The translations under genes were made by a program, and so were the position numbers. This document shows positions 7,095-49,914 of a stretch of 64,000 nt of DNA, piece by piece. Positions within the stretch are counted from its first letter, which is position 1; every line of letters begins with the position of its first letter. Source of the DNA: Curtobacterium sp. MCSS17_007. GTDB taxonomy: Bacteria; Actinomycetota; Actinomycetes; Actinomycetales; Microbacteriaceae. The notes beneath the pieces were generated by a model, which was given only the letters and a program-made list of their open reading frames with translations, ran no database searches and was not told the origin of the DNA. The DNA lies in NCBI RefSeq assembly GCF_003234175.2, contig NZ_CP126257.1, positions 3,224,001-3,288,000 on the forward strand, in the 5' to 3' direction.

Positions 7095-7146
7095 ACGACG
7101 GACGGGAGGCGCGGTGCCAGCCGGCACCGCGCCTCCCGTCCGTCGT
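7095..7146. repeat. Dispersed palindrome, copy 1 (GGACGGGAGGC family)
   Basis: Two perfect 24-nt arms surround the 4-nt loop AGCC. The outer core is GACGGACGGGAGGC and the inner arm is GCGGTGCC. It lies 8 nt past the stop of the isocitrate dehydrogenase gene, between convergent genes, where it could end transcription from both sides. Confidence 0.9.
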
Positions 7147-7154
7147 ACCGTCGC

Positions 7155-9365
7155 CTACAGGGCGGCGAGCGCCTCGTTGAAGGTGGCCGACGGACGCATC
7201 ACGGCGTTCGTCTTCGCCGTGTCCGGGCGGTAGTACCCACCGATGTCGGCCGGCTTGCCCTGGACGGCGACCAGCTCGTCGACGATCGTCGACTCCTGCT
7301 CGTCGAGCGTCGACGCCAGACCCTGGAACGCCGCCGCGAGCTCGGCGTCCTCGGTCTGGCGGGCCAGCTCGTCGGCCCAGTACTTCGCCAGGTAGAAGTG
7401 GCTGCCACGGTTGTCGATCGAGCCGAGCTTGCGACCGGGCGACTTGTCCTCGTCGAGGAACGTGCCCGTGGCGCGGTCGAGCGTGTCCGCGAGGACCTTC
7501 GCCCGCGCGTTGCCGGTGACCCCGGCCAGGTGCTCGAACGACACCGCGAGTGCCAGGAACTCGCCGAGCGAGTCCCAGCGCAGGTAGTCCTGCTCGACGA
7601 GCTGCTGCACGTGCTTCGGCGCCGAACCGCCGGCACCGGTCTCGAACAGGCCGCCGCCGCCCAGGAGCGGGACGACGGAGAGCATCTTCGCCGAGGTGCC
7701 GAGCTCCATGATCGGGAACAGGTCGGTGAGGTAGTCGCGGAGGACGTTGCCCGTGACCGAGATGGTGTCCTCGCCGCGGCGGATGCGCTCGAGCGAGAAG
7801 CGCATGGCGTCCTCCGGGGCCAGGATCTCGATCTGCAGCCCGTCGGTGTCGTGGTCGCCGAGGTACGTCCGCACGAGACCGATGAGGTTCGCGTCGTGCG
7901 CCCGGGTCTCGTCGAGCCAGAACACGGCGGGCGAACCGGTCGCACGGGCACGCGTGACGGCGAGCTTCACCCAGTCGCGGATCGCCACGTCCTTGGTCTG
8001 GCAGGCACGCCAGATGTCACCCTGCTCGACGTCGTGCTCGATGACCGTCTCGCCGGAGCTCGTGACGACGCGGACCTTCCCGTCGCCGGGCAGCTCGAAG
8101 GTCTTGTCGTGCGAGCCGTACTCCTCCGCCTTCTGCGCCATGAGCCCGACGTTCGGCACGGAGCCCATCGTCGACGGGTCGAAGGCGCCGTTCGCGCGGC
8201 AGTCCTCGATGACGGCCTGGTAGATGCCGGCGTAGCTCGAGTCCGGGATCACCGCGAGGGTGTCGTGCTCCTCGCCGTCCGGGCCCCACATGTGGCCGGA
8301 GGTGCGGATCATCGCCGGCATCGAGGCGTCGACGATGACGTCGCTCGGGACGTGCAGGTTCGTGATGCCCTTGTCGGAGTCGACCATCGCGAGCTCGGGG
8401 CCGGCGTCGAGACCGTCCGCGAACGCCTGCTTGATCGCAGGCCCGTTCGGCACGCTGTCGAGCCCGGCGAGGAACGAGCCGAGGCCGTCGTTCGGGTTGA
8501 GCCCGGCGGCTGCCAGGTCGGCCCCGAAGCGCTCGAACACGGTCGGGAAGAACGCGCGGATGACGTGGCCGAAGATGATCGGGTCGGAGACCTTCATCAT
8601 CGTGGCCTTGAGGTGCACCGAGAACAGGACGCCCTGCTCCTGGGCGGCGGCGATCTGGTCCTGCAGGAAGGCCTCGAGGGCGCGGACGTGCAGCACGGTG
8701 CCGTCGACGACCTCGCCCGCGAGGACGGGGATCGACTGCTTGAGCACGGTGGTGGTGCCGTCGGCGGCCACGAACTCGATCGTCAGGGTGTCGTCGGCGG
8801 GCGCGATCCACGACTGCTCGTTCGAGCGGAAGTCGTCCTTGCCCATCGTCACGACGTTCGTCCGCGAGTCGGCGCTCCAGGCGCCCATGCGGTGCGGGTG
8901 CTTCTTCGCGTAGTTCTTGACCGACAGCGGCGCGCGGCGGTCGGAGTTGCCCTCGCGCAGCACCGGGTTGACGGCGCTGCCCTTGACGCGGTCGTAGCGG
9001 GCGCGGACGTCGCGCTCCTCGTCCGTCGTCGGCTCGTCCGGGTAGGCGGGCAGGTCGTAGCCCTGGGCCTGCAGTTCCTTGATCGCGGCCTTGAGCTGGG
9101 GGATCGACGCCGAGATGTTCGGCAGCTTGATGATGTTCGCCTCCGGCGTCGTCGCCAGGTCCCCGAGCTCGGCCAGGGCGTCGTCCAGGCGCTGCTCGTC
9201 ACTGAGCCGCTCCGGGAACTGGGCGATGATCCGGCCGGAGAGCGAGATGTCGCGGGTCTCGACGTCGACGCCCGCTGTGCGCGCGAAGGCCTCGACGACG
9301 GGGAGGAACGAGTGGGTCGCGAGGAACGGTGCCTCGTCCGTGAGCGTGTAGATGATCTTGGCCAT
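7155..9365 (-). CDS. icd: Monomeric NADP-dependent isocitrate dehydrogenase
   Basis: A 736-aa TCA-cycle enzyme that oxidatively decarboxylates isocitrate to 2-oxoglutarate with NADP+. The start [19 protein letters not shown], the [10 protein letters not shown] stretch and [20 protein letters not shown] are hallmarks of the monomeric type, which is unrelated in length to the 400-aa dimeric enzyme. The full length is typical. I chose MAKIIY rather than an ATG eight codons upstream because family members start there. A perfect 14-nt palindrome lies about 58 nt upstream of the start. Confidence 0.97.
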
Positions 9366-9422
9366 GCTGGCGGGTACTCCCTTGTTCATGCCGTCGGTAG
9401 GTCCACGCTACTCGCGGCGCGA

Positions 9423-9436
9423 GATGTCTCGACATC
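9423..9436. promoter_or_regulatory. Perfect palindrome GATGTC-TC-GACATC upstream of icd
   Basis: The site lies 58-71 nt before the isocitrate dehydrogenase start, within a locally AT-richer stretch that continues as AAGATACC. Its length and position fit a repressor or activator site. I could not assign a regulator. Confidence 0.4.
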
Positions 9437-9458
9437 AAGATACCTGCTCGTGGCGGGT

Positions 9459-9947
9459 TCAGACGGAGATCCGGAACACCCGCACCCCGGCTGCCCGCAG
9501 GCCCGCGGTGCCGAGGCGGGTCCGCAGGCTCCGGAAGGGACGCCGGAACCCCGAGCGGGCCGAGGCGAGACCGATCTGGTACAGCACCTCGGACGTCAGG
9601 GTCCGCTCGACCCGCGGCGCGAGACGGGTGACGCCGGAGACCGTGATGACGATCCGCACCGCGTTCGGCGCGAGCAGCGGTGCGATGCGCTCGGCGGCCT
9701 CCTGCGCCCGGTGGAACGCCGGGTCGTCGCCGGGGCGGCGGATCGCGATCACCGCAAGGTCGGCGTCCGCGTGCTCGTGCGGATCGGGCAGGTCGTCGAC
9801 CCCCACGACCCGCATCCGCGCTGCATCGACGCCCGCGCGCACGGCCGAGGCGCGGAGCACGGGGAGCAGCTCCTGCGTGCCGGCGAGCACGACCTCGGCG
9901 GTCGCGAGGTCGATGGGCTCGTGCCGTTCCCGCGGCGTTCGGGCCAT
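9459..9947 (-). CDS. Conserved-looking hypothetical protein
   Basis: A 162-aa soluble protein I do not recognise. Codons are strongly GC3-biased and the ATG has AAGGACC at a normal distance, so it is very likely real. It has an alpha/beta look (AEVVLAGTQELLPVLR, DADLAVIAIRR, NAVRIVITVSG) and a basic C-terminus (RPFRSLRTRLG). It is cotranscribed with nothing obvious and reads toward icd from about 94 nt upstream, so the icd promoter must lie in that gap. Confidence 0.65.
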   Translation of the reverse strand: MARTPRERHEPIDLATAEVVLAGTQELLPVLRASAVRAGVDAARMRVVGVDDLPDPHEHADADLAVIAIRRPGDDPAFHRAQEAAERIAPLLAPNAVRIVITVSGVTRLAPRVERTLTSEVLYQIGLASARSGFRRPFRSLRTRLGTAGLRAAGVRVFRISV

Positions 9948-48838: not shown

Positions 48839-48866
48839 TTGCGATACGGATCGTACTGAGTACAGT
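48839..48866. promoter_or_regulatory. Divergent promoter with GTACT-G-AGTAC operator
   Basis: On the plus strand TTGCGA (48839-48844), 16 nt and TACAGT (48861-48866) form a promoter for the dehydrogenase gene. The palindrome GTACTGAGTAC (48853-48863) overlaps the -10 and is a good candidate site for the TetR-family repressor encoded nearby. Confidence 0.5.
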
Positions 48867-48931
48867 TTGCATCGGCGGGATCGAGCACACAAGCCCGGTT
48901 CCCGGACCACGTCTCCACGAGAGGAACCGGC

Positions 48932-49795
48932 ATGACCTTCCAGCTGCCCCAGGACGTCCAGTCCCGTCCGGTCACCGTGATCGGGGGTGGCACGCTCGGC
49001 CGCCGCATCGCCCTGATGTTCGCCAGCGGTGGCGCGGACACCCGGGTGTACGACCTGTCCGAGCAGGTCCGCTCCGACGCGGTGGCGTACGTCGAGCAGA
49101 CCCTGCCGGAGGTCGTCGCCTCGCGCCAGGGCGCCGTCGCGGGCACGGTCCGCGGTGACGACGACCTCACGACCGCGGTCGACGGTGCGTGGCTGGTCGT
49201 CGAGGCGATCCCCGAGCGCCTCGAACTGAAGACGACGGTCTTCGGGCAGCTCGACCGAGCCGTCGCCGCGGACACGATCCTCGCGAGCAACTCGTCGTCG
49301 TACGCGTCACGCCTGATGATCGACGAGGTCGAGCACCCCGAGCGGGTGCTGAACATGCACTTCTACATGCCGCCCCGGCAGAACGCCGTCGACCTGATGA
49401 GCGACGGCCAGACCGACCCGGCGGTCCTGGCCTTCCTGCAGGAGCAGCTGCCCCGCTACGGCGTCTTCCCGTTCGTCGCGCACCGGGAGTCGACCGGCTT
49501 CATCTTCAACCGCATCTGGGCCGCCATCAAGCGGGAGTCGCTGGCCGTCGTCGCCGACGGCGTCTCCACGCCCGAGGACGTCGACGCGATGTTCCAGGTG
49601 AACTCCGGCGCACCCGCCGGCCCGTTCCGGATGATGGACCAGGTCGGCCTCGACGTCGTGCTCGACATCGAGGACCACTACGCCGCAGAGGACCCGCACC
49701 TGCCCGAGGGCCCGCGGAAGCTCCTGCACGAGTACGTCGACGCCGGCCACCTCGGGGTCAAGACCGGCCGCGGCTTCTACACCTACGACCACTGA
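48932..49795 (+). CDS. 3-hydroxyacyl-CoA dehydrogenase family protein
   Basis: A 287-aa NAD-dependent dehydrogenase: VTVIGGGTLGRRIALMFASGG is the Rossmann loop, LASNSSSY matches the conserved Ser/Asn, and VLNMHFYMPP brings the catalytic His. HRESTGFIFNRIW and HLGVKTGRGFYTYD complete the C-terminal domain. It oxidises a 3-hydroxyacyl-CoA or related hydroxy acid. GAGAGGA precedes the ATG. It is divergent from the acetoacetate decarboxylase-like gene, with the shared operator between them. Confidence 0.9.
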   Translation: MTFQLPQDVQSRPVTVIGGGTLGRRIALMFASGGADTRVYDLSEQVRSDAVAYVEQTLPEVVASRQGAVAGTVRGDDDLTTAVDGAWLVVEAIPERLELKTTVFGQLDRAVAADTILASNSSSYASRLMIDEVEHPERVLNMHFYMPPRQNAVDLMSDGQTDPAVLAFLQEQLPRYGVFPFVAHRESTGFIFNRIWAAIKRESLAVVADGVSTPEDVDAMFQVNSGAPAGPFRMMDQVGLDVVLDIEDHYAAEDPHLPEGPRKLLHEYVDAGHLGVKTGRGFYTYDH

Positions 49796-49802
49796 CGGGC
49801 CA

Positions 49803-49825
49803 CGTGCAGCCCCGAGGGCTGCACG
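49803..49825 (+). terminator. Hairpin terminator after the dehydrogenase gene
   Basis: Perfect 10-nt arms CGTGCAGCCC and GGGCTGCACG with a 3-nt loop, 7 nt after the stop. There is no U-tract. A palindrome of the dispersed family follows 43 nt later for the opposite strand. Confidence 0.6.
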
Positions 49826-49868
49826 GACCGTCACGGCTGGACCGACGGGCGGGCCGGCGGGCCGCCTG

Positions 49869-49914
49869 TCGGACGGGAGGCGCGGGGGTACCCGACACCG
49901 CGCCTCCCGTCCGA
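49869..49914. repeat. Dispersed palindrome, copy 10
   Basis: Seventeen-nt perfect arms (TCGGACGGGAGGCGCGG) around a 12-nt loop, 11 nt after the stop of the GAF-protein gene. It is the rightmost copy in the window. Confidence 0.9.

Follow-up and report, generated by a model that had tools for sequence, protein, structure and literature searches.

A REPIN-like palindrome dispersed behind gene ends in Curtobacterium: a candidate bidirectional 3′-end hairpin, probably homogenised among its copies

Introduction

What keeps one and the same palindrome behind the stop codons of so many genes in a bacterial genus? The question is raised by a 64,000-nt stretch of Curtobacterium sp. MCSS17_007 (contig NZ_CP126257.1, positions 3,224,001 to 3,288,000; this whole stretch is hereafter called the window), in which the original prediction, made from the sequence alone, had marked ten copies of a conserved palindrome and proposed a unit that is more than a generic terminator, perhaps one like the repetitive extragenic palindromic (REP) sequences and adopted as a terminator, or else a terminator that binds a protein. 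We followed the palindrome through the window, the source genome and related genomes. With confidence somewhat above even, we read it as a dispersed, genus-specific element resembling REPINs (hairpin-forming REP doublets), which serves as a bidirectional 3′-end hairpin without a U-tract and is homogenised among its copies. No earlier report of it was found among the open-licence papers listed, judged by their titles or the start of their abstracts.

Results

Structure and copy number

The element consists of two inverted 11-nt cores, GGACGGGAGGC and GCCTCCCGTCC, which flank a self-complementary middle of 20 nt (N20), giving 42 bp in total. The window contains eight exact GGACGGGAGGC-N20-GCCTCCCGTCC copies, one copy with a single mismatch and one half-copy. 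All ten places of the original prediction exist; its starts were off by 0–5 nt, probably because extra pairing bases had been counted. With stops and starts taken from genes called by our own simple codon-usage finder, the copies are the following:

7100..7141, copy 1: both cores exact, inner type GCGGTGCC; follows the minus-strand isocitrate dehydrogenase gene 7155-9365, 13 nt after its stop
12671..12712, copy 2: both cores exact; follows the plus-strand gene 11347-12657, 13 nt after its stop
17879..17920, copy 3: both cores exact; follows the minus-strand gene 17935-18921, 14 nt after its stop
27578..27619, copy 4: left core with one mismatch, inner arms outside both main types; follows the minus-strand gene 27634-28119, 14 nt after its stop
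30819..30860, copy 5: both cores exact; lies between two convergent genes, for a BCCT transporter (28956-30803, stop 15 nt away) and an SDR oxidoreductase (30875-31576, stop 14 nt away)
36331..36372, copy 6: both cores exact, inner type GCGTGGCGG; follows the minus-strand gene 36387-37094, 14 nt after its stop
39183..39224, copy 7: both cores exact; follows the minus-strand gene 39239-40090, 14 nt after its stop
42598..42639, copy 8: both cores exact; follows the plus-strand gene 41074-42573, 24 nt after its stop
49871..49912, copy 9: both cores exact; lies between convergent genes, with the stop of the minus-strand gene 49926-51044 at 13 nt and the plus-strand stop at 49795 at 75 nt
46756..46787, half-copy: shortened inner part, exact core on the minus strand only (46777-46787), left arm with 2 mismatches, no adjoining stop; probably a decayed copy

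The nearest stop thus lies 13, 13, 14, 14, 14, 14, 14, 24 and 13 nt from the 42-mer in copies 1 to 9, close to the 8–23 nt first given, and the half-copy, as had been said, adjoins no stop. The two inner-arm types that had been distinguished are both visible but grade into mixed forms.

Across the whole 3.31-Mb single-contig genome we counted 146 exact pairs (spacer N18-24) and 0 matches to a reversed control pattern, which rules out chance. The unit has a fixed length, with N20 in 135 of the 146 exact pairs and in 292 of 330 paired matches. Counted singly, the core has 236 occurrences on one strand of the 3.3 Mb and 246 on the other (controls, 0 and 4). In a 464-kb sample of the genome, composed of the window and 20 evenly spaced 20-kb stretches, it is the most frequent of all 11-mers (83 occurrences; mean 2.35 for observed 11-mers of the same composition). 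Palindromes account for 64 of these 83 exact cores; the remaining 19 are divided between genes (9) and intergenic DNA (10), and several of the intergenic ones are visibly decayed or rearranged. When up to two mismatches are allowed, the 11-mer by itself shows no enrichment in the window (57 found, 95 expected), so that the signal is the exact core together with its pairing. Of the 39 copies in the sample with up to three mismatches, none with 0–1 mismatch lies inside a called gene; the three called inside genes all have 2–3 mismatches, and one further copy sits at the edge of a stretch.

At the ends of the element there is no unpaired GTAG or CGTC tag; its GAC...GTC flanks are symmetric and face each other. 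Rearranged copies include inward-facing cores with almost no spacer and a copy with far longer arms (L177 10831; L180 9622). In genome G001 the palindrome also occurs inside tandem arrays with units of ~154 and 227 nt, which fill convergent gene-end gaps (L313 1-900; L314 100-1080).

The folds of four copies are far more stable than those of shuffled sequences, by 5.8 to 10.8 standard deviations (z −5.8 to −10.8). Among 292 distinct copies the inner 20 nt are paired at 63–97% per position, with many double changes; because the sub-families share descent, this covariation is not counted as independent evidence. As proof of selection on RNA it was rejected in favour of a test on G.U mismatches, which came out negative (Discussion). 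The G+C-rich hairpin after the gene is shared with canonical intrinsic terminators. A search of the window against Rfam gave 0 matches above the gathering score, and a promoter and terminator scan of positions 1-20000 picked up none of the palindromes there.

The absence of copies after 50 kb of the window, also stated at the outset, holds for copies with up to three mismatches but is not significant (Poisson chance 0.31 for 14 kb); positions 50000-64000 have a G+C content of 0.698 against 0.729. We therefore rejected the copy-free stretch as an island marker. Over 48 counting windows, copies and G+C content are uncorrelated (Spearman 0.08).

Placement relative to genes

For gaps of at least 60 nt and copies with up to three mismatches in the 464-kb sample, the element occupies 14/44 gaps between convergent genes, 19/130 tandem gaps and 1/59 divergent ones (chi-square p 1e-4; convergent against divergent, Fisher p 2e-5). 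The bias between gap types also stands against an even spread over gap length (p 2e-6). With up to four mismatches, occupancy of convergent, tandem and divergent gaps is 16/44, 20/130 and 2/59 in the source genome, 58/72, 32/171 and 9/118 in relatives, and 79/123, 62/233 and 5/139 in the named set, which consists of 8-kb stretches picked for holding a copy.

When their distance to the nearest stop is measured, as had been suggested, the copies of the sampled stretches prove strongly concentrated after stops; a lack of such enrichment, one of the two outcomes named beforehand as refuting the first proposal, did not occur. Among the copy-to-stop distances below 60 nt in all stretches, 100 of 327 fall at 13–15 nt, and 54–70% of nearest-stop distances fall at 8–25 nt. 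Other hairpins of the same stretches have a broader peak and almost the same median stop distance as the element (17.5 against 17.0 nt). Such a spacing would suit a hairpin that stands just clear of the terminating ribosome.

Of the convergent gaps in the source genome, 13 contain the element only, 3 contain both element and another hairpin, 15 another hairpin only and 13 neither (odds ratio 0.2, p 0.03). The element and other hairpins are partly mutually exclusive in these gaps, at a level that looks significant, and the relatives and the named set show the same lean (50, 8, 4, 10 and 60, 19, 20, 24 in the same order of classes). At the level of sequence, placement and partial exclusion support the suggestion that the palindrome has been adopted as a terminator.

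In several Curtobacterium the palindrome is accompanied by another kind of hairpin, which has A/T tails and conserved arms resembling AAAGCGACAG...CTGTCGCTTT. We located it in the gap between the DAHP synthase and kinase genes in L207 (G089), L215 (G001), L218 (G033), L219 (G163), L220 (G032) and L235 (G029); it looks like a bidirectional canonical terminator.

An extended palindrome of 70 bp, with flanks of the form GACCAC..TGAC / GTC..GTGGTC, was considered and rejected, since the flank is commoner on the stop side: the GACCAC..TGAC-type flank occurs at 9/62 near-stop and 1/30 start sides of the source genome's copies, and at 27/203 and 7/109 in other genomes. TGA is not enriched at the flank position on start sides, so the element seems not to carry its own stop codon. 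The hexamer GCGACC follows the stop within 25 nt in 16.7% of the 281 genes that have the element, against 1.8% of the 824 genes that lack it.

Genomes that carry the family

Genus limits were tested with exact patterns. Exact copies occur in all 35 Curtobacterium relatives of one genome set (16–162 each) and in none of its 23 genomes from other families of the order. At the family level, 4 of 249 genomes match, all of them Curtobacterium (the source genome, G089, G163 and G272); no exact copy was found in G221, of the same genus, nor in 244 genomes of 84 other genera of Microbacteriaceae. In an order-level set the only match among 396 genomes is the source genome itself. Named species genomes yielded at least 120 stretches; among the 80 matches listed, 79 are Curtobacterium and one is a metagenome-bin contig labelled Cellulosimicrobium. 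This 3-kb contig (L049) holds two copies and is possibly a misbinned Curtobacterium contig. The shorter pattern GGAGGC-N20-GCCTCC gives 142–253 pairs in 25 Curtobacterium, source genome included (controls 0–5), and 25 in G221 (control 4); among 54 genomes of 54 other genera only three exceed 4 (17, 16 and 8). In an eight-protein tree of 21 genomes G221 is a long-branch outgroup.

Phage records gave no match. Plasmid records with a match are one from Curtobacterium and two from Microbacterium, each with two places that we read as both strands of one palindrome; in these externally annotated plasmids the matched 42 nt lie 14 nt (Curtobacterium) and 16 and 16 nt (Microbacterium) from a stop. On the Microbacterium plasmids (L316 3001-3048, L317 3001-3048) the copy comes right behind the stop codon of an SDR gene. 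This gene is part of a cassette of three whose protein accessions agree between the two plasmids and which may have been acquired from Curtobacterium.

We also examined 200–220 kb of each of six other genomes, G221 included, for hairpin cores that recur and for frequent 9-mers. Five of the six have no 8-mer common to more than three strict hairpins, and the same holds for G093 (3/16; source genome 8/27). In G093, of genus g56, CGCGCCTCC occurs in 21/103 gaps, as frequently as in the source genome (17/107), which speaks against strict genus limits. The related motif GGAGGCGCGG of this genome (L263-L272) resembles the Curtobacterium arm in sequence and is partly paired and largely single, with 24 occurrences in gaps and 50 in genes, some of them upstream of genes. 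In view of G093, we claim genus restriction for the 42-nt pair only and make no claim of family-wide dialects. Such dialects in other genera were rejected, since the frequent 9-mers are mostly genic and the hairpins have no common core.

Those 9-mers are of the GGATGC/GCATCC type (CGGATGCCG, GAGGCATCC) and are frequent in G121 (L293-L302), G137 (L303-L312) and G138 (L273-L282), with genic shares of 109/128, 83/95 and 65/72; CGGATGCCG in G121 is genic 109 times and intergenic 19 times. A genome of another genus, G079 (L283-L292), carries an unrelated intergenic repeat, GGTCGAGTA...TATCGAGACC, with 5 of its 11 intergenic matches in one 20-kb stretch.

Conserved sites and exchanged sequences

Orthologous gaps were compared with one genome per species, the stretches fetched being a small part of each relative. 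Around the window, only G015, G016, G027 and G089 among 20 genomes offered comparable gaps beside palindromes. Most of the compared gaps contain the same palindrome family in relatives; unrelated hairpins, the outcome that would have spoken against the first proposal, are not the rule. The copy at 27578 is present in the three relatives compared, with a different inner module in G015 and G016. The counterpart of copy 36331 in G027 is a hairpin in which three core positions are altered on both arms, so that the core is compensated. A gap at 32900, with only an apparent remnant in the window, is filled in G027.

A core region running from the class-II DAHP synthase to the division cluster (L171) allowed comparison of 20 Curtobacterium, source genome included, and G221. 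Two convergent gaps of this region, one between the DAHP synthase and kinase genes and the other between the genes for an Rv2175c-like protein and a polyprenyl synthetase, each contain the element in 19/20 Curtobacterium. The automated count was 18/21 for each, to which we added G163 (first gap) and the source genome's own N19 copy (second gap) and from which we left out G221; the remaining misses are G010 and G031. A 540-nt tandem gap is occupied in 7/21, and the three divergent gaps are occupied in 0/62 genome-gaps. G221 has no element in the gaps of the region. Among the few gaps compared there was no clear empty-site insertion.

The sites are kept and the sequences are not. At 30 variable nucleotides, copies from the same gap are identical at 0.746 (16 genomes) and 0.695 (17 genomes), and arbitrary copies of different genomes at 0.724. 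Copies in the same gap of different species are no more alike than unrelated copies, i.e. their sequences have turned over. In one gap of the sister species G001 and G033, nearly identical mutated outer arms enclose different inner modules.

Turnover is accompanied by species dialects of the outer arms. We counted the exact outer arms GGACG, GGACT and GGCCK among all GGAGGC pairs, allowing N18-24 for GGACG and N20 for the others (counts in that order):

Source genome: 146/1/1 of 215
G016: 162/1/0 of 222
G272: 34/81/25 of 249
G029: 35/67/30 of 239
G018: 21/38/82 of 244
G034: 16/47/51 of 231
G163: 30/30/51 of 209
G028: 81/10/44 of 230

GGACG dominates in the branches nearest the root as drawn, where branch order is weakly supported, and G034, G163, G018 and G029 are shifted. 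G029 groups with G031 (support 0.99), yet the two differ strongly (35/67/30 against 78/17/9). The two arms shift together within each element, and many elements have shifted at once; this suggests that copies overwrite one another.

Discussion

We propose that the palindrome takes the place of the 3′-end hairpin behind genes, its commonest position being ~14 nt beyond the stop codon. Transcription from either side would yield a hairpin of ~20 pairs that may end or protect the transcript without the usual U-tract. The copies would form one population, in which sites are retained through use and sequences are overwritten from other copies by gene conversion or re-copying. Such overwriting would keep the core uniform, exchange inner modules and let both outer arms drift jointly into species dialects.

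Several observations weigh against this proposal. There is no U-tract: even the most T-rich 8-nt stretch behind the hairpin has just 0–3 T in most tandem copies (18/20 in the source genome, 31/32 in relatives, 58/63 in the named set). When 107 tandem copies are read in the direction of transcription, G.U mismatches, which an RNA hairpin would tolerate, are about as frequent (38) as A.C mismatches, which it would not (32; p 0.55), and RNA-level selection on single pairs is not visible in these counts. Divergent gaps are sometimes filled (9/118 in relatives, 5/139 in the named stretches); the counts being low and nonzero, such gaps are avoided, not forbidden. Mutual exclusion looks significant in one set only, the other two being non-independent and given without a statistical test, and some species (G029, G163) hold the element 70–180 nt from both stops beside other hairpins. 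Finally, the similarity of sampled copies within a genome is not significantly above that under shuffled labels (0.730 against 0.720; 357 of 2000), so that the case for homogenisation is carried by the whole-genome dialect counts and the module swap.

The closest known systems are REPs and REPINs. As described in the available parts of PMC3116915 and PMC3733652, these reach more than 100 copies per genome with an inverted conserved core around a less conserved self-complementary spacer, their doublets outnumber singlets and show compensatory changes, and they lie in convergent and tandem gaps, often less than 20 nt from gene ends. The Curtobacterium element likewise has a short, palindromic, high-copy and extragenic core, predominantly in inverted, hairpin-forming doublets. 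It differs in its actinobacterial host genus and outer-arm dialects, and in its stem of ~20 pairs against 5–13 bp (GTAG) and 8–9 bp (CGTC) in the REPs treated in the available part of PMC3733652. The search for a RAYT-type Y1 transposase (PF01797), which had been recommended, gave no match in the source genome (0/1) or in any genome searched (0/26), while 5/14 control genomes were positive. This absence is weaker evidence than it looks, since the portions available of two papers describe CGTC REPs without a dedicated transposase (PMC3733652) and E. coli genomes that lack RAYT and still hold REPINs (PMC8049555); a missing RAYT alone does not set the palindrome apart. The REP-like character first proposed therefore stands for anatomy, copy number, placement and doublet excess, and not for the transposase or the GTAG/CGTC tag. 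With neither a Y1 transposase nor an unpaired tag, its arms being symmetric, we do not file the element as a REPIN, though it works like one.

Other known elements are more distant. Bor, Ype and Efa stem-loop repeats are, in the text available from PMC1590033, hairpin families that favour the 3′ ends of coding regions; their hosts are Bordetella, Yersinia and Enterococcus, and the likeness is one of description. I-shaped terminators of Streptomyces share the G+C-rich stem at transcript ends without a U-tract; the available part of PMC8269248 reports no conserved stem sequence for them, whereas the Curtobacterium palindrome has one.

The strongest rival, a serious though clearly less probable account, is a mobile unit of REPIN type that is purely selfish. 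A transposase now lost or not recognised would have copied it, and it would survive mainly right behind stops because it does least harm there, any effect on transcripts being incidental. The excess of doublets, with singlets that often look decayed, the fixed unit length, the tandem arrays of G001 and the single copies on two Microbacterium plasmids all fit such a unit, as does a placement that resembles the REPs described in the available text of PMC3733652; the RAYT-less E. coli of PMC8049555, as far as described there, make the present absence of PF01797 compatible with a past transposase. Occupation of two gaps in 19/20 species is unlike a patchy, roaming element, the third, tandem gap with its 7/21 being the patchier case. 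That divergent gaps are avoided, that the few gaps compared show no clear empty-site insertion and that 26/26 genomes are without a PF01797 match also count against it.

The main functional rival, on account of the fixed length and the outcome of the G.U comparison, is a site that acts as DNA, to which we assign a rather low probability. A dimeric or paired protein (a nucleoid, topology or termination factor) would bind the inverted cores, and placement at gene ends would reflect supercoiling relief or a roadblock. The cores lie 31 bp apart, about three helical turns; their sequence and not just their pairing is fixed (the 142–253 GGAGGC pairs per Curtobacterium genome), the spacer is N20 in 292/330 paired matches, G.U and A.C mismatches are equally common in transcribed copies, and the dialects could follow a changing protein. 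A dimer site could do without a self-complementary middle, whereas here the inner 20 nt are paired at 63–97% per position, which is in part shared descent of sub-families; nor would such a site need the spacing from stops, a feature that other hairpins have too. Dialects are moreover mixed within a single genome (81/10/44 in G028).

A more speculative extension, which we regard as improbable, draws on the analogy of ComP and uptake sequences: the transposase-free palindromes might be the genus's own 3′-end signal, read by a dedicated factor that recognises the core, and joint change of factor and element might produce dialects of transcript ending.

It is very unlikely that the genus is naturally competent, that the core is its DNA uptake signal and that inverted pairs have been put to use as terminators, as they are in Neisseria. 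In favour of this, no other 11-mer is as common in the genome sample, and the available text of PMC3630211 describes for the Neisseriaceae a core common to related species, inverted pairs at gene ends and between-species dialects which our variants recall. The Curtobacterium element is far scarcer, with 482 core matches on both strands of 3.3 Mb against the 2,245–5,918 per genome given there, and has few single copies in genes: only 9/83 exact cores are genic, whereas intragenic uptake sequences are described in the same text as common. Ordinary, independent terminators that are alike through high G+C can practically be dismissed, for although structured ends without a U-tract are common in the Term-seq data of G+C-rich Streptomyces (available part of PMC8269248), identical cores 146 times against a control of 0 refute the idea, and the family is absent from 244 genomes of other genera, several with similar G+C in the sampled stretches.

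On our preferred reading, a 3′-end hairpin homogenised among its copies, Curtobacterium offers a REPIN-like population without a detected RAYT, whose sites are conserved over the genus and whose sequences are overwritten with both arms in step. This makes two questions testable: (i) whether REP-type hairpins persist because of a job at gene ends and (ii) how short dispersed repeats stay uniform without their transposase. The family would also supply bidirectional 3′-end parts and a marker of descent for Curtobacterium.

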